From a virus: a stretch of 20,690 nucleotides of DNA. The position numbers were made by a program, and so were the translations under genes. This document shows, one piece after another, positions 5,983-18,654 of the stretch. The stretch lies in IMG/VR virus record IMGVR_UViG_3300044640_003373, positions 1 to 20,690 of that record; one strand, written 5' to 3'. Position 1 is the first letter of the stretch. Every line of letters starts with the position of its first letter. Under the pieces are notes generated by a model, which was given only the letters and a program-made list of their open reading frames with translations, did no database searches and had not been told where the DNA came from.

Positions 5983-6123
5983 ATGAAACTAGCAAAGATA
6001 CAACCGACGCGACGATTCGCCTCACCTGCCGCGATGGCGGCTGCGCTGGGCACCTCGCGCTACCCGTTTCGCAGTCATGGGACGCTGGCAGACCATGCCA
6101 AGGCGCAGGCGGTGCAATCATGA
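5983..6123 (+). CDS. Small unknown protein, first gene of rightward early operon
   Basis: A 46-residue protein (MKLAKIQPTRRFASPAAM at the start), 39 bp after operator O2. A weak ribosome site (AAAGG) lies about 8 nt upstream of the ATG. Its stop overlaps the next start in the sequence GGTGCAATCATGATGG, and its last residues, AVQS, match the ends of the next two proteins. The composition is basic with no membrane segment. I do not recognise a family. Being first after a repressor-controlled promoter, it is an early accessory gene, perhaps aimed at the host, but this is inference. Confidence 0.55.
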   Translation: MKLAKIQPTRRFASPAAMAAALGTSRYPFRSHGTLADHAKAQAVQS

Positions 6124-6341
6124 TGGAATTTAGCGTTTGGGGCATTGCGCCTGGAGATGAATTTGAAACACTTCTTTGCGAAGTTGTCCGTGGTGAACGC
6201 ATAACCGACAAGCGACTTGCAGAGGCCGTTAAAGTTGAGGCGATTAAGCGCGGGAATAAAAATGTCCGTATAATGGAACTGGACATGGCCTGCGCAGATA
6301 TAGCTGGAATGTTTAGTGCAAGCGCACCGGTGCAATCATGA
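6120..6341 (+). CDS. Small unknown early protein with duplicated C-terminal tag
   Basis: A 73-residue protein, MMEFSVWGIAPGDEFETLLC at the start, coupled to the preceding gene by an ATGA overlap. Residues 18-50 are charged and helical (ITDKRLAEAVKVEAIKRG). The last 18 residues, MACADIAGMFSASAPVQS, are identical to the end of the following protein because 60 bp of DNA are duplicated. No family is recognised. The first 55 residues are unlike the neighbour, so the two genes share only their tail. Confidence 0.6.
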   Translation: MMEFSVWGIAPGDEFETLLCEVVRGERITDKRLAEAVKVEAIKRGNKNVRIMELDMACADIAGMFSASAPVQS

Positions 6342-6343
6342 GC
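6284..6343 (+). repeat. 60-bp perfect direct repeat, copy 1 (gene 3' end)
   Basis: Identical to 6742-6801. It spans the last 19 codons of the gene, its stop codon, and the ATGA overlap that starts the next gene. Confidence 0.9.
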
Positions 6344-6799
6344 TGCTTTATGATATCCGATGCCCACGCCGATTTTCTGGCAACCGCTTATCTGCAATTC
6401 GTTGACCATAATGCAGACCCGCAAGCCATTGGCCAAGCGATCTTGACAGAGAACGCCCGTTCATGCCGCGCGCGATATGAAGACAGGCACGGCATGGCGG
6501 ACGATGGCGACGCACAGGCCGCCGCCTACGTCTATCGCCGCTGGATCGGCAACATCGCACCAGCGAACCTTAACAAAAACGCCCGCTGCGCCGCTTATCA
6601 GGCGTGTGAGCATGACGAATGGGAACAAAGCACCGCCTTTGCGCAAATTAAACAAATGATTGATGCAACGGGTGGGGGTAATTGCGACATGGACGACGAC
6701 TATCCATGGGGCATTGATGAGCATCCAGAGGACGCGATGCCCATGGCCTGCGCAGATATAGCTGGAATGTTTAGTGCAAGCGCACCGGTGCAATCATGA
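6338..6799 (+). CDS. Unknown phage protein (YQACEH-type) with duplicated C-terminal tag
   Basis: A 153-residue acidic protein. The middle motif CAAYQACEHDEWEQSTAFAQ (about residues 84-103) resembles a widespread family of small phage proteins with a YQSCEHPEWE-like signature and no known role. Residues 115-135 are acidic (NCDMDDDYPWGIDEHPED). The final 18 residues copy the tail of the preceding protein through the 60-bp repeat. The start overlaps the previous stop by ATGA, so translation is probably coupled. The family resemblance is from memory of the motif and should be treated as moderate. Confidence 0.65.
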   Translation: MSCFMISDAHADFLATAYLQFVDHNADPQAIGQAILTENARSCRARYEDRHGMADDGDAQAAAYVYRRWIGNIAPANLNKNARCAAYQACEHDEWEQSTAFAQIKQMIDATGGGNCDMDDDYPWGIDEHPEDAMPMACADIAGMFSASAPVQS

Positions 6800-6801
6800 G
6801 C
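6742..6801 (+). repeat. 60-bp perfect direct repeat, copy 2 (gene 3' end)
   Basis: Identical to 6284-6343, 458 bp downstream and again placed at a gene junction with an ATGA overlap. Confidence 0.9.
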
Positions 6802-7254
6802 GCAAATTTAACAGTCGAAAAACGCATTTATTGGCAAGTCTTTTGGCGCGGCTATTCAGTGCATTCCGCAGCGCTTTTTCATCACAAAAGCGTTGCGACG
6901 CGACTGCACGACTTCATTCTCAACGAATTGCAACAGCTATCCGTCGGTGATCATCGTCCGCTTTTAGATCAGTTTGCCTATAAACGGGTGACCAGCTTTA
7001 TTTACCAACTTCTGTTGGACGATGGATCCTTGTTGCGGCGCGGTGCAATCATGACCGCCGCCACAACCAAAGAGCAACGGCTTGCCGAACGCGACGACGC
7101 ACTGGACGGCCTTGCCCGCGCCATTGCGGAGCGCGATCGGCAAATGATAGCCGCCGCCGTCAACGGCCCCCACCGCCGCGCGATGCACGTCGATCAACGC
7201 GACGCGGGCCATTTACCCCTTTTCATTGCAGCTAACGAACCGAGGATGATCTAA
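6796..7254 (+). CDS. Unknown early protein, possibly two genes fused
   Basis: A 152-residue frame starting MSANLTVEKRIYWQVFWRGY, with its start overlapping the previous stop. At residue 86 the DNA reads GGTGCAATCATGACC, the same 13-base junction that joins the three preceding gene pairs, but here the frame reads straight through. The second half (MTAATTKEQRLAERDD, from ATG 7051) therefore looks like a separate gene that has become fused in frame. It could also still be started internally. The first half is aromatic-rich and helical; the second half is charged (RAIAERDRQMIAAAVNGPHR). Neither half is recognised. The stop overlaps the next ATG as TAATG. Confidence 0.6.
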   Translation: MSANLTVEKRIYWQVFWRGYSVHSAALFHHKSVATRLHDFILNELQQLSVGDHRPLLDQFAYKRVTSFIYQLLLDDGSLLRRGAIMTAATTKEQRLAERDDALDGLARAIAERDRQMIAAAVNGPHRRAMHVDQRDAGHLPLFIAANEPRMI

Positions 7255-7558
7255 TGACCAAAACACTTGCATATTGCGACCGCGCCGGAGTGATCGGCTT
7301 TGCCGTCGGTAAACCAGCGCCAGACGGCACACTTTCATTTTTCAGCGCACGGTCCGAAAAGGCGTGCCGCCTGAAGGTAGAGGCGACCGCGCGCCATGCC
7401 TATGACCAAACGACTTTGCTTGTTCCCGGCGTGCCAGAGGCGGTTGACGAGGCACACGCTCTCGAAGCGTTGCAGCTGCACCGCGCTTGGCTCCAAGGGG
7501 ACCAATCGGACGATTTACCCGCCCGCCGTGAGGCATGGCAACAACGCTTGTTTGCGGC
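7231..7558 (+). repeat. 328-bp direct repeat, copy 1 (gene plus its ribosome site)
   Basis: Matches 7991-8318 at 318 of 328 positions with no gaps. The repeat begins 23 bp before the start codon, so it carries the ribosome site (GAGG) with the gene. Confidence 0.9.
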
Positions 7559-7568
7559 GCGGTCATGA
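7254..7568 (+). CDS. Putative host-nuclease-inhibitor-like protein, copy 1
   Basis: A 104-residue protein, MTKTLAYCDRAGVIGFAVGK at the start. The pattern AYC-x-RAG-x-IGF, an A-[TA]-x-AYD element and TLLVPGVPEA (about residues 53-64) matches what I recall as the phage family annotated host nuclease inhibitor protein. Direct evidence for nuclease inhibition in that family is thin. If the name is right, the product would protect incoming phage DNA from host exonucleases such as RecBCD/AddAB early in infection, which fits its place in an early operon. A second copy with about 97% identity follows at 8014. The two proteins differ at a few residues (L40R, H48R, Q52R, DD to EN near residue 86) and at the extreme C-terminus. 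Confidence 0.6.
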   Translation: MTKTLAYCDRAGVIGFAVGKPAPDGTLSFFSARSEKACRLKVEATARHAYDQTTLLVPGVPEAVDEAHALEALQLHRAWLQGDQSDDLPARREAWQQRLFAARS

Positions 7569-7975
7569 GCAGTTGGCCGCACTCCCAATATGCGCACGAC
7601 CTGTCTGGCCTTGGTCCACCAGCGCCGGACGAATTGCGCCGCGAAGATGAAAGCCGCCCGACGATTGGCGACTTTTTGCCGGTCGGCACAGTCATTGTCT
7701 CAAGCTATGACACTGGCCCTTATAGGATCGAGACAGTAACGAAGCATCAAACCTATCCCGACTTTCATTCTTGGTCACTTGTGCTGATCGACCAGAAGGG
7801 CGGCGAATTCATCCGCACAAAGAACGATTATTGCTACATCAACGAATTGGTCGTGGAGTGGGATGGCGAAACGCCGCGCTTCCGCAAGCTATTTGCGTGC
7901 AACAACCACGAAGTTTTCATTGTCAGCCAGTTTGCGCCGACCACAGACCAGCGCGGCCAAATGAGCCTGATATGA
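7565..7975 (+). CDS. Unknown protein between the duplicated genes
   Basis: A 136-residue protein from ATG 7565, overlapping the preceding stop as ATGA. After a polar start (MSSWPHSQYAHDLSGLGPP) it reads as a compact beta-rich domain: IGDFLPVGTVIVSSYDTGPY, then SWSLVLIDQKGG and ELVVEWDGETPRFRKLFAC. This is reminiscent of a small SH3-like or barrel fold, but no family is recognised. It was presumably carried along when the flanking gene was duplicated. It is followed by 15 bp and then the second copy of the repeat. Confidence 0.65.
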   Translation: MSSWPHSQYAHDLSGLGPPAPDELRREDESRPTIGDFLPVGTVIVSSYDTGPYRIETVTKHQTYPDFHSWSLVLIDQKGGEFIRTKNDYCYINELVVEWDGETPRFRKLFACNNHEVFIVSQFAPTTDQRGQMSLI

Positions 7976-7990
7976 CTTATTTTTGTCAAC

Positions 7991-8318
7991 GCTAACGAAC
8001 CGAGGATGATCTAATGACCAAAACACTTGCATATTGCGACCGCGCCGGAGTGATCGGCTTTGCCGTCGGTAAACCAGCGCCAGACGGCACACTTTCATTT
8101 TTCAGCGCACGGTCCGAAAAGGCGTGCCGCCGCAAGGTAGAGGCGACCGCGCGCCGTGCCTATGACCGAACGACTTTGCTTGTTCCCGGCGTGCCCGAGG
8201 CGGTTGACGAGGCACACGCTCTCGAAGCGTTGCAGCTGCACCGCGCTTGGCTCCAAGGGGACCAATCGGAAAATTTACCCGCGCGCCGTGAGGCATGGCA
8301 GCAACGCTTATTTGCGGC
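7991..8318 (+). repeat. 328-bp direct repeat, copy 2
   Basis: About 97% identical to 7231-7558 at a constant offset of 760 bp. Five of the ten differences lie in the last 50 bp. Confidence 0.9.
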
Positions 8319-8331
8319 AATGGCATCATGA
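8014..8331 (+). CDS. Putative host-nuclease-inhibitor-like protein, copy 2
   Basis: A 105-residue paralogue of the gene at 7254, with the same ribosome site (GAGG, 8-nt spacer) copied by the repeat. Three substitutions introduce Arg (L40R, H48R, Q52R), so this copy is more basic. The C-terminus diverges from residue 102 onward (AAMAS against AARS). Keeping both frames intact over 760 bp suggests either a very recent duplication or selection for two versions or for dosage. The stop overlaps the next start (ATGATG). Confidence 0.6.
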   Translation: MTKTLAYCDRAGVIGFAVGKPAPDGTLSFFSARSEKACRRKVEATARRAYDRTTLLVPGVPEAVDEAHALEALQLHRAWLQGDQSENLPARREAWQQRLFAAMAS

Positions 8332-8606
8332 TGGCACAGCTTGACCTATTTGCCGCCGCGCAAACGCATAACAGCAACAGATATTCCGTGCGTCACGGCT
8401 ACAACTATGCAGCCCATGACTACCGCAGAAGCGCCGCTAGCGATGCGCACGGTGGGCTTTGTCGGCACATATGCAGAGTTTCCGCCCAGCACAAACGCAA
8501 GCGTCACGCCGCCTATCATGACAGCAATCGGCGTGTACCATTTACCTGGCGTAAAAATGGCTATCGCGGCTGTTATCAAGATGAACGGGTCTATCATTGT
8601 GCCTAA
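8328..8606 (+). pseudogene. 5' remnant of a small early gene cut by an inserted gene
   Basis: ATG 8328 overlaps the preceding stop. The first residues, MMAQLDLFAAAQ, look like a genuine small phage protein start. Downstream the frame (to 8606) becomes His/Arg/Tyr-rich, as expected for the back side of the membrane-protein gene on the other strand. The real gene therefore probably ended its conserved part near 8360. A plausible 3' remainder in another frame lies at 8735-8974. Confidence 0.35.
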
Positions 8607-8729
8607 GCCCATACCAATGATTAAGGCGGAGTCACTGGAAGATATCGGAATAAGTGCAGCCAATATGATTGCAAAAATCAATCCGGGCCCGGACTTGCTC
8701 GTAACTATTGCTTTGAACGACTTCCACAT
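8346..8729 (-). CDS. Multi-pass membrane protein, probable inserted accessory gene (moron)
   Basis: A 127-residue protein running against the surrounding rightward operon. ATG 8729 is chosen because AAGGGG lies 9 nt upstream; ATG 8735 is only 3 nt from it. About four hydrophobic segments are visible: GLIFAIILAALIPISS, ALIIGMGLGTMIDPFILITAAIAIF (possibly two), YTPIAVMIGGVTLAFVLGG, and SAVVMGCIVVAVTHGISVAVM. The protein ends in a basic RLRGGK tail. Base composition looks more AT-rich than the flanks. An opposite-strand membrane gene within an early operon is typical of lysogeny-expressed cargo such as superinfection exclusion, but no family is recognised. Confidence 0.6.
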   Translation of the reverse strand: MWKSFKAIVTSKSGPGLIFAIILAALIPISSSDSALIIGMGLGTMIDPFILITAAIAIFTPGKWYTPIAVMIGGVTLAFVLGGNSAYVPTKPTVRIASGASAVVMGCIVVAVTHGISVAVMRLRGGK

Positions 8730-8734
8730 TCTCA

Positions 8735-8974
8735 TTGTCCCCTTGCACGTTTGCGCAATGGCTGCCATATCCCGTCGCGCAAGGCAAGTCGCCTTCTCGG
8801 GATTGGGAACCCGCTTATGTAGGCGCACCCAGCGCCACGGCCCTGCCTGAGGCGTTTTCTTTATGGCCGGACGTGGATGGGGCAGCGAAAGCTGCGCCGT
8901 TGCCTACAGCGGTATTTCCAACCCGCCACGCCCGGTCACCAAGCTATTGGGAAAGCTTGACCGGCAGACTGTAG
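8735..8974 (+). pseudogene. Probable 3' remnant of the interrupted gene
   Basis: A plausible protein frame that lacks any ATG start (only TTG at 8735). It reads LPYPVAQGKSPSRDWEP, then SATALPEAFSLWPDVDGA and SPSYWESLTGRL before a TAG. The composition looks protein-like, and the frame stops 9 bp before the antirepressor start. It sits just beyond the inserted membrane gene in a different frame from MMAQLDLFAA at 8328. It is most simply the tail of that gene. A functional TTG-started gene cannot be excluded. Confidence 0.35.
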
Positions 8975-8982
8975 GAATTGCC

Positions 8983-9711
8983 ATGAACGATATACTAAAT
9001 TTGACATTCGAGAACCAACCTGTCCGCATCGTCCTGCAGGACGGTGAACCGTGGTTCGTCGCCACCGACGTCGCTTCGATCTTGGGTTACAGCCACGGCC
9101 CACACATGGTTAGAATAATGGATGACGATGAAGCTGCTGTCCACATTATGGACACCAGCGGGCAAAACCGCGAAGTTTCTATCATTTCCGAATCGGGCCT
9201 ATACAACGCGATCTTCAAGTCGCGCCGGGCGGAGGCAAAGGCGTTTCGCCGCTGGGTTACGGGCACCGTATTGCCAACGATCCGTCAGACAGGGCAATTT
9301 GCGTTTTCTGCAAATTATCCGCCAGTCCCCGATATGCGCCGTTTTGACGATGCCGCTTGGCTCAACGCGGGCGTTGCTGCGGTGCGAGAGGCGCGGCGCT
9401 TGTTCGGCCATGGCGTCGCGCGCGCCGTGTGGCGCGACATCGGCCTGCCTTTGCCTGAAAATGCGATGCCGGCCTTGCCCGATGGCCTGTCCGATGCCGT
9501 CAACCTGTGGACCGATGGCCGCGACCGATTTACTTTTGCTGATCTTGCGGCGGGTCTGGGTCTGGGCGAACCCGACTGGCCATTGAAACGTCGCTTTTCC
9601 GACATATTGACCGCCTTGGGCTGGACCGAGAAACGCACACGGCGCGGCAATGGCTTGGTCTATGCGTGGCACCGGCCAATCGAAACCGTCAATGCGGAGG
9701 AAGCGGCATGA
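8983..9711 (+). CDS. BRO-N domain antirepressor
   Basis: A 242-residue protein starting MNDILNLTFENQPVRIVLQD, with AGGA 7 nt before the ATG. Residues 1-105 form a BRO-N domain: GEPWFVATDVASILGYSHG, then SIISESGLYNAIFKSRR and AFRRWVTGTVLPTIRQTG. Its signature is the E-S-G-L-Y-x-x-I-F-x-S-x-x-x-x-A-x-x-F-R-x-W-V core. The C-terminal half has a second region with WLNAGVAAVREARRLFG and a GLGEPDWPLKRR segment ending near GLVYAWHRP, which looks like a specific DNA- or partner-binding domain. BRO/Ant proteins bind phage repressors or DNA and trigger lytic growth. The gene is near the end of the operon behind operator O2, so repression would control its own antagonist. Confidence 0.88.
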   Translation: MNDILNLTFENQPVRIVLQDGEPWFVATDVASILGYSHGPHMVRIMDDDEAAVHIMDTSGQNREVSIISESGLYNAIFKSRRAEAKAFRRWVTGTVLPTIRQTGQFAFSANYPPVPDMRRFDDAAWLNAGVAAVREARRLFGHGVARAVWRDIGLPLPENAMPALPDGLSDAVNLWTDGRDRFTFADLAAGLGLGEPDWPLKRRFSDILTALGWTEKRTRRGNGLVYAWHRPIETVNAEEAA

Positions 9712-14093: not shown

Positions 14094-14346
14094 GATTGGT
14101 TGCAGGGGTCGGACTCGAACCGACGACCTCTTGGGTATGAACCAAGCAAGCTACCGCTGCTCCACCCTGCAATCTGTGAAATATTTCAGATATCGACTTG
14201 ACCTTATGCCGCTCGGTCCCGCGTTTGCTGCCGTCAGGGCCATAAAGTTCGGGACAAGCGCCAAGCACCTGCGCGCGCCGCTTACGCGTTTCCCATCCTT
14301 TGATCGAAGCGGCGCGGCTATCACGCACGGTCGGGGCCTTCGGCAT
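13978..14346 (-). CDS. Possible small gene running into the tRNA
   Basis: ATG 14346 lies within the 3' end of the preceding gene (26-bp overlap). The first 58 residues look like real protein: MPKAPTVRDSRAASIKGWET, then RKRRAQVLGACPELYG. The frame then passes without a stop through the whole tRNA and on to a TAG at 13978, giving 122 residues in which the tRNA sense strand is translated. Tail residues after the tRNA are not convincing. Either the tRNA was inserted into this gene, or RNase P processing leaves it without a stop codon. A third possibility is that the frame is accidental. Confidence 0.35.
   Translation of the reverse strand: MPKAPTVRDSRAASIKGWETRKRRAQVLGACPELYGPDGSKRGTERHKVKSISEIFHRLQGGAAVACLVHTQEVVGSSPTPATNHGSGDPFSHVSGERRANDAGIHGEAVFAVDVRHAETTA
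14097..14171 (-). tRNA. tRNA with CAU anticodon (elongator Met or Ile2), CCA encoded
   Basis: The minus strand folds into a full cloverleaf. The 7-bp acceptor stem is TGCAGGG/CCCTGCA. The D stem is GAGC/GCTT, the anticodon stem CTTGG/CCAAG with loop TTCATAC (anticodon CAT), and the T arm GTCGG-TTCGAGT-CCGAC. A discriminator A is followed by an encoded CCA (14099-14097). The first pair is T-A, not the mismatched C1:A72 of initiators, and the anticodon stem lacks the three G-C pairs of initiators. It is therefore an elongator Met tRNA, or an AUA-reading Ile tRNA if the C is modified by the lysidine enzyme. It lies inside the leftward early operon and would have to be cut out of that transcript. 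Confidence 0.93.
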
Positions 14347-17188: not shown

Positions 17189-17377
17189 ATGGAGGCCGAC
17201 TTGACTATTTCCAACACCGAAGAATTCCGCTCCCTTGTGGACCGGCATGGTGGGCCGGCTGCCGTTTCTCGAAAATTTGATGTCGGACGGCGATCACTTA
17301 ATCGGCTGCTCAATGGCTCTCAACCACCGCCGAACAATTTGCTCGATGAAATGCGCACGGCAAAGGTGCCATCATGA
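17189..17377 (+). CDS. Small HTH protein upstream of integrase (Cro/YdaS-like; candidate excisionase)
   Basis: A 62-residue protein. The helix-turn-helix core is DRHGGPAAVSRKFDVGRRSL followed by NRLLNGSQPPP, the G-G-x-x-A-V-S-R-x-[FL] pattern of YdaS-type Cro-like proteins. ATG 17189 lacks a good ribosome site. A TTG at 17201 has GGAGG 5 nt before it and may be the true start, giving 58 residues. The stop overlaps the integrase start as ATGA. A tiny DNA-binding protein coupled to an integrase is a good candidate for the directionality factor, but it could also be a regulator. Confidence 0.65.
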   Translation: MEADLTISNTEEFRSLVDRHGGPAAVSRKFDVGRRSLNRLLNGSQPPPNNLLDEMRTAKVPS

Positions 17378-18654
17378 CCCGCAAGCGCAGCAAGGGCCGC
17401 ATTGGTATCCCCAACCTGTTCCCCGTCGAATTGGCTGGCGGCGTCATCAAATATCATTGGAAACCGACTCCGCGCATGCGCCGCGCGGGCTGGGCTAATC
17501 TGGATTGCGGCACGGATCGCGCGACCGCTATTCAACTGGCCGAGGCACGCAACGCTGAAATCGCCACTTGGGACGCTGGGCTTAACCATGCTGGCCTTGG
17601 CCATAATGGCGGGCCTTCACTGTCTGACATGCGCCCGCGCAGCATGCGCGAACTTGCCGACGCATGGATGCGCAGCGACCATTTCCGCAACACACTCGCG
17701 CCAAAAACACAGCGGCTATACAAACACAGCGCCGACAAGTTGATGATCTGGACCGAGCAAGGCAGCATTCCCGTTGCACATATCAGCCGCGCCGCATGTC
17801 TTGAACTGCGCGATCACTTGGTACGCAGCGGCCAAAAAAGCGCCACCGCCAACACATTGCGCGTTTTGCGCGTCCTTATGGCTTATGCCGTTGATCGCGG
17901 CATCATCGCCGTAAACCCTGCGCTAAAAATGCGCATCCCCGAATCCGACCGGCGAACCCACATCATTGACGCCCGCGCAATTGACTTGCTCGACCGCGCC
18001 GCAACTGCGCTGCATCTGCCATCGGTCAGGCTTGCCATGCTCATTGGCTTTTGGACTATGCAGCGTGAAAGTGACCTTCTCGCTTACACTAAGGCTGATT
18101 GGCGCATCATTCCAGCGGTAGACGTCCCGCCCGAAGCGCGGTGCGCCCTGTCCGACGCACACGGCAATGTATGGGGCTTCAAAAAGGCGCAGCAAAAAAC
18201 CAAGCTGCACGTATGGCCATCGGTGCCGCCCGCCGTGCGCGACCTTGTGCATACGACCATAAAGGCCAATGAAGCGCGCGACGTGCCAACCTTTGTCATC
18301 TTGCCAGATGACCGCATGGCAAAACGCTACAGCGACAAACAGTTTCAGCGCCGCTTTAGCCAGGTGCGCGCCGTCGCATGGTATGGCGCCATCCTTGCCG
18401 GTGACTGGCGGCTTGCCAAGCATATCCGCAGCACCCAATTCCGCGATTTCCGCCGCACCGGCATGTGCTATTTCGGCGAACTGCGCGTGCCCGTGCCGCT
18501 AATCGCCGCGATCAGCGGCCACAGCATCGCCTACACGCAAAAGATCATCGACACCTACATGCCGGCCAACAACCGCTTCGCCGTCATGGGGCTGGCCGAG
18601 GCGATAACCCGCGCCGCCGAACGCACCATTATCGAGGAAAGGTTAGAGGGATGA
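17374..18654 (+). CDS. int: Tyrosine recombinase (phage integrase)
   Basis: A 426-residue integrase of normal length. An N-terminal arm-type region (1-90) is followed by a core-binding SAM-like domain (about 90-190, with LADAWMRSDHFRNTLAPKTQ). The catalytic domain then shows Arg231 in FWTMQRESDLL and Lys275 or Lys277 in the hairpin QQKTKLHVWP. Box II is QFRDFRRTG (Arg360), the second His is His383 in ISGHS, and the nucleophile is Tyr395 in IIDTYMP. The usual first box II His is Arg357 here, a replacement I recall from many alphaproteobacterial integrases. The enzyme joins attP to attB and reverses the reaction with a directionality factor, perhaps the gene just upstream. The attachment core was not identified. 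Confidence 0.93.
   Translation: MTRKRSKGRIGIPNLFPVELAGGVIKYHWKPTPRMRRAGWANLDCGTDRATAIQLAEARNAEIATWDAGLNHAGLGHNGGPSLSDMRPRSMRELADAWMRSDHFRNTLAPKTQRLYKHSADKLMIWTEQGSIPVAHISRAACLELRDHLVRSGQKSATANTLRVLRVLMAYAVDRGIIAVNPALKMRIPESDRRTHIIDARAIDLLDRAATALHLPSVRLAMLIGFWTMQRESDLLAYTKADWRIIPAVDVPPEARCALSDAHGNVWGFKKAQQKTKLHVWPSVPPAVRDLVHTTIKANEARDVPTFVILPDDRMAKRYSDKQFQRRFSQVRAVAWYGAILAGDWRLAKHIRSTQFRDFRRTGMCYFGELRVPVPLIAAISGHSIAYTQKIIDTYMPANNRFAVMGLAEAITRAAERTIIEERLEG

Follow-up and report, generated by a model that had tools for sequence, protein, structure and literature searches.

The closest described counterpart of the locus analyzed here is immI of phage P1, which comprises sim, c4, icd and ant; P1 can do without sim, and c4 and icd are also described on a D6-like plasmid (PMC6906374, PMC10695390, PMC6799933; like the other PMC sources below, these are cited for their accessible parts). 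In the P1 annotation, simABC run leftward beside c4, and PsimA and P2c4 diverge around the C1 operator Oc4. As the accessible text of PMC8546580 has it, Sim may prevent DNA injection by superinfecting phages, and the accessible part of PMC9603915 counts sim as one of eight variable regions of the P1-like phage-plasmids. Other leftward envelope genes stand at the sim position in P7 and SJ46, and D6 has no gene there.

A second precedent is provided by the Klebsiella telomere phage-plasmids. Their telocins are made in host cells and come from five cassettes at one equivalent locus, some phages having none (PMC12042878); in the accessible part of that source no mention of an antisense RNA, a small RNA, Icd or a promoter was found. 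We find a colicin-like gene at the corresponding place in three Klebsiella telomere phage-plasmids (L134, L141 and L142), and the place is empty in L139 (Enterobacter) and L140; the C4 RNA was confirmed by Rfam in L134, the sole telomere phage-plasmid scanned.

The window, by which we mean the whole stretch of viral DNA analyzed (20,690 nucleotides), resembles P1 immI in that leftward accessory genes adjoin a rightward C4 RNA controlling an antirepressor, the order a1, b1, c4, a2, b2 being the same, and the window's leftward gene has the position and direction of sim beside c4. It differs in lacking icd, in having a BRO-type Ant, in being a phage fragment with an integrase (17374 to 18654), and in its cargo, which is predicted to be a membrane protein of several helices and is not related to SimA or SimB; BLAST found no match to either, and there was neither a PHROG match nor similarity to named exclusion proteins. 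With the telocin cassettes it shares the leftward orientation beside C4 and the variability, or absence, between relatives, although bacteriocins are encoded there and a small membrane protein here. The sim region of PMC9603915 likewise has the same position and a variable content, but the accessible part of that source draws no tie to C4 and its phages differ from the window's. The literature searched, outside which most subscription journals lie, was found to contain no account of a C4-linked cargo slot shared by different phage lineages.

The C4 RNA, its targets and the antirepressor gene

The argument concerns the following features of the window.

8328 to 8363, plus strand: 5' remnant MMAQLDLFAAAQ (MMAQLDLF); L009 (2528 to 3208) and L010 (2674 to 3354) have the whole gene
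8346 to 8729, minus strand: cargo of the slot, start ATG at 8729, a 127-aa protein with four hydrophobic segments
8739 to 8744, minus strand: Shine-Dalgarno-like AAGGGG of the leftward gene, 9 nt from the ATG at 8729 and inside the conserved block
8743 to 8758, no strand assigned: imperfect palindrome TTGCAC-GTTT-GCGCAA
8743 to 8771, plus strand: weak, putative promoter-like pair for C4-ant (TTGCAC, 17 nt, CATATC)
8785 to 8826, plus strand: a1/b1 target region, a hairpin with loop ATTGGGAA and then TGTAGGCG, with 7-nt a' and 8-nt b' complementarity
8859 to 8943, plus strand: C4 antisense RNA, RF01695 (Rfam covariance model, 53.3 bits, gathering score 45, E 1.5e-07)
8944 to 8982, plus strand: a2/b2 target sites and ant leader, loop TTGGGAA and CTGTAGG directly before the ant start
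8983 to 9711, plus strand: BRO-N antirepressor Ant (PF02498, E 3.1e-22; phrog_130, E 1.6e-43)

RF01695 is matched above its gathering score, at the same place, in the window and in all four of its close relatives (L007 to L010), with up to 65.8 bits. The likeness to this family extends from sequence and structure above the curated score to loop-target complementarity and the antirepressor downstream, whereas the window's a1/b1 region matches the c4-a1b1 family (RF03163) weakly (8785 to 8817, 13.4 bits against 46.7). Over 7 nt, the a' segment of C4 is complementary to both the a1 loop and the a2 loop, and b' to its sites over 8 and 7 nt; ant follows directly after C4/b2, with no icd gene between. 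The C4 RNA, its targets and Ant are thus established at the level of sequence.

Among the five family members a', a1 and a2 change in step (a'/targets TTTCCAA/TTGGGAA, GTATCAA/TTGATAC and CTATCAA/TTGATAG), L009 and L010 being the members whose a' and both targets differ from those of the window. This is what a functional C4 pairing predicts, and it suggests three immunity types among the five phages. Whole-loop duplex energies were noisier and did not always rank the phage's own target first, and in the table of a'/b' complementarity the entry for locus L071 was mis-parsed.

The palindrome upstream of the targets appears in L007 as an exact TTGCA-N6-TGCAA. It may be operator-like, the C1 operator Oc4 of P1 serving as the model and its position being the only argument; palindrome matches elsewhere in the window were no more numerous than in shuffles. 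A sigma-70 consensus scan found nothing in either direction; promoter activity here is a prediction. Beyond the family, RF01695 had no match in two genomes in which the control sequences were silent too, the C4 pattern was absent from 396 Sphingomonadales genomes, and a scan of genome contigs with Ant yielded distant relatives only.

The flanks of the membrane gene and its replacement in close relatives

The earlier note on this DNA interpreted the site as one small early gene split by an inserted cargo gene with terminal inverted repeats. A cargo-like membrane gene does have a start on one side and an open frame on the other, and a 9-bp inverted pair is present. The gene start proposed at 8328 was also correct: MMAQLDLFAAAQ begins there, overlapping the stop of the frame 8014 to 8331. 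It belongs, however, to a different gene that is whole in L009 and L010, where it encodes 226 aa beginning MMQMDLFAAAP and, in the L009 copy, matches Mg_chelatase_C (PF13335, E 7.7e-9). On the other side, the supposedly protein-like frame 8735 to 8974 has no Pfam or PHROG match and no codon signal and is overlain by the C4 RNA match, and for these reasons we regard it as a by-product of a structured RNA region. What had the appearance of a broken gene is in this sense a regulatory RNA with covarying targets.

An uninterrupted gene joining the two flanks was sought in the relatives and not found. The flanks are separate in all four, an outcome that the earlier note had itself named as counting against a split, and in L009 and L010 a different leftward membrane gene still stands between the intact 226-aa gene and C4. 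The inverted repeats exist as a 9-bp GCGCAAACG pair, with the left copy at 8358 to 8366 and not at 8354 to 8362, but they do not rise above chance: the window contains 106 exact 9-mer inverted pairs at most 520 bp apart, some 2 per 400 bp, and hence the pair carries no weight. Its right arm lies within the conserved promoter-like stretch, where the sequence differs in the relatives. A gene split by a mobile element was accordingly rejected, there being no uninterrupted gene in the relatives and no terminal repeats above chance, and we give this model a negligible probability. The flanks had at no time formed a single gene.

When the window is aligned with L007 to L010, shared DNA appears on both sides of the slot, and on the right it begins abruptly at about 8738 to 8742; the L010 alignment reaches back to 8710, since the first residues of the leftward gene product, MWKSFKA, are shared and their codons fall within it. 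Leftward hydrophobic ORFs, unrelated or partly related to that of the window, occupy the slot in L007 (94 aa), L009 (84 and 94 aa) and L010 (132 aa). L008 has no leftward gene, and its upstream gene start runs into the C4-ant block. The AAGGGG leader stands in the block before the leftward genes of all four occupied phages, the window included, and is absent in L008. Close inspection of the proteins reveals that those of the window and L010 are alike near their starts only (MWKSFKA; E 5e-4 in the six-frame comparison), and that two proteins are homologous to the second one of L009, namely that of L010 (E 6.7e-9) and one in prophage L144 (46% identity over 93 aa). The L144 homologue again follows a small hydrophobic gene; within the stretch of L144 covered, no C4 exceeded the threshold. 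The homologues in L010 and L144 support both the leftward coding and the mobility of these genes. Two further genomes, L146 and L147, gave weak matches.

Exchange at the slot and the shared leader are likewise demonstrated, and on this comparison the site is a cassette slot and not an insertion into a gene. The C4 RNA and the slot are well supported; the function would follow from position.

Several observations on the neighboring DNA can be recorded here. Relative to L007 to L010, the interval 6123 to 8738 of the window is mosaic, with blocks such as 6786 to 7558, 7040 to 7271 and 7991 to 8331 present in some relatives and missing or shifted in others, and parts of 2.6 to 6.1 kb and of 8.74 to 13 kb are conserved. 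Within two tandem phrog_1518 (host nuclease inhibitor) genes, at 7254 to 7568 and 8014 to 8331, there is a 219-bp repeat of 95% identity (7340 to 7558 and 8100 to 8318). The start ATGATGCAAATGGACCTRTTTGCCGCC recurs at module joints (8328 in the window, 2526 in L009, 2120 to 2195 in L010), and in L010 a phrog_1518-type gene ends in a further copy, which is truncated and fused to it; ATGATGCAAATGGACCTRTTTGCCGCC may be a micro-homology for module exchange.

The coding strand of the slot gene

The leftward four-segment membrane ORF of the earlier note was confirmed, with its ATG at 8729 and 127 aa. A second in-frame ATG at 8735 gives a version of 129 aa, and the last codons overlap the MMAQLDLF remnant. 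It is alone in having four hydrophobic segments among the 83 window ORFs that reach 80 aa, and 500 rounds of dinucleotide shuffling of 8346 to 8735 never produced three or more. In the five family contigs taken together, at least two such segments were present in only 8 of 296 ORFs (at least 80 aa), and five of these eight are slot genes. The protein is predicted to insert into the membrane. It has no match in Pfam, PHROG or PADLOC, no relative in the viral contigs or phages searched, and no homologue in the 396 Sphingomonadales genomes, a search run without a positive control. Its AlphaFold model was poor (mean pLDDT 46) and was not used for a fold search.

The case for the leftward strand is built on this hydrophobicity, the leader, the orientation and the homologues. 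It could be objected that the leftward ORF is spurious, and that the rightward frame 8341 to 8850, or no protein at all, is used. No stop codon interrupts such a frame across the slot in any of the four occupied family members, and the generic codon score in the window slightly favors it (0.148 versus -0.032 for the leftward frame); codon use is neutral and lends no support to 8346 to 8729. But in the rightward frame the first codon positions face the T-rich second positions of a membrane frame and, by this reasoning, the lack of rightward stops is accounted for by the membrane frame itself. The rightward frames, moreover, extend into the C4 leader, the shared leader exists on the leftward side only, and the homology is clearer leftward, where the six-frame comparison gives E 2e-9 for L009/L010 against 0.002 and 0.006 for the best rightward pairs, and where the L144 homologue is found. 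A spurious leftward frame is in our opinion improbable. We take the leftward gene to be, in all likelihood, real.

Recurrence of the slot and the role of its cargo

The generality of the slot was assessed on viral-contig C4 loci, of which 80 were listed from 89 stretches; with the window these make 81, and the 72 that have 800 bp upstream fall into 25 clusters. A gene was scored as cargo if it was leftward and had either at least two hydrophobic segments or a family match. Among the stretches listed, 12 of the 25 upstream clusters (19 of the 72 loci) have leftward cargo, and the 12 cargo types are six hydrophobic ones, BrnT/BrnA (L065), Gp49 (HigB-like, L063), TumE (L106, with an HVO_A0114-type HTH partner), PDC-M31, a SimA-like protein and a SWIM protein. 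The other 13 clusters are without leftward cargo, and ten ORFs from nine of them had no Pfam match in a scan that left out L049, L051, L052 and L110. L137 and L094 have no slot gene. A sample of 14 E. coli C4 loci, from 24 listed of 3,088 matching records, contained no recognisable accessory gene at the slot; the nearest annotated 5' gene was leftward in two (L153 and L161), both annotated pseudogenes. The slot is recurrent, not universal.

Some of these loci deserve individual mention. In L095 (IMGVR_UViG_3300002180_000387) an AAA_21 ATPase and a Toprim-like protein, 0.4 to 2.4 kb upstream of C4, match the PADLOC candidate defence pair PDC-M31 A/B. In L085 (IMGVR_UViG_2773857937_000001) a leftward exported-type phrog_3933 protein beside the C4 RNA has 67% identity over 42 aa to P1 SimA. 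Matches to the Rfam family isrK begin about 100 bp before C4 in each of six loci (L045, L063, L065, L085, L106 and L134), and that of L085 overlaps a c4-a1b1 match; isrK and the C4 leader there look like one and the same element.

The explanation toward which we lean, with somewhat more confidence than doubt, is that the window gene is an accessory gene in an exchangeable slot beside C4, made in the lysogen and acting in superinfection exclusion. The site is a temperate phage's immunity locus with the layout of P1 immI. Its rightward transcript would carry the C4 RNA and then Ant, and C4, pairing through two short loops with targets before itself and before ant, would keep Ant off in the lysogen. 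Upstream and in the opposite direction, behind a conserved ribosome-binding leader, lies the slot whose coding sequence is swapped between close relatives. By analogy with P1, we infer that the cargo is expressed in the lysogen from the opposite, divergent side of the region controlling C4 and Ant, and the 127-aa four-helix membrane protein, acting at the cell envelope, would then exclude superinfecting phages. The exclusion role follows mainly from a position equivalent to that of P1 simABC. The earlier suggestion of a cargo gene (moron), perhaps lysogen-expressed and serving for example in superinfection exclusion, is therefore supported in kind, through the exchangeable slot and the position and direction of simABC.

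A cargo made in the lysogen could also have another role. It might be a membrane toxin or resemble an antitoxin, it might resemble a bacteriocin-immunity protein, or it might belong to an abortive-infection system. The presence at the same position elsewhere of BrnT/BrnA, Gp49/HigB-like, TumE-pair, PDC-M31 A/B and colicin-like genes is in keeping with this, as are the two-gene membrane pairs of L009 and L144. However, neither the window gene nor its family neighbors match a PADLOC family, and the P1 precedent favors exclusion; we consider such an alternative role possible, though rather unlikely.

Returning to exclusion by a lysogen-made protein, the preferred reading, we propose more tentatively that the C4-ant flank could be a recurrent expression platform, in which a constant divergent promoter, operator and ribosome-binding leader would serve cargo that unrelated lineages swap and that is active whenever, and only when, C4 is. 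Exclusion proteins, bacteriocins, toxin-antitoxin pairs, defence pairs and orphan membrane proteins would all then be cargo of one platform, and the window and its four relatives would have caught the exchange in the act, with its boundary at the leader. The place just upstream of a C4 RNA would offer a sequence address for lysogen-expressed exclusion and defence genes. Near-identical phages in which one slot holds three other membrane cargoes or stands empty form, together with the window, a natural series for testing what small orphan membrane proteins do.

Elsewhere in the window, a tRNA match (RF00005, 63.8 bits) lies on the minus strand at 14100 to 14171.
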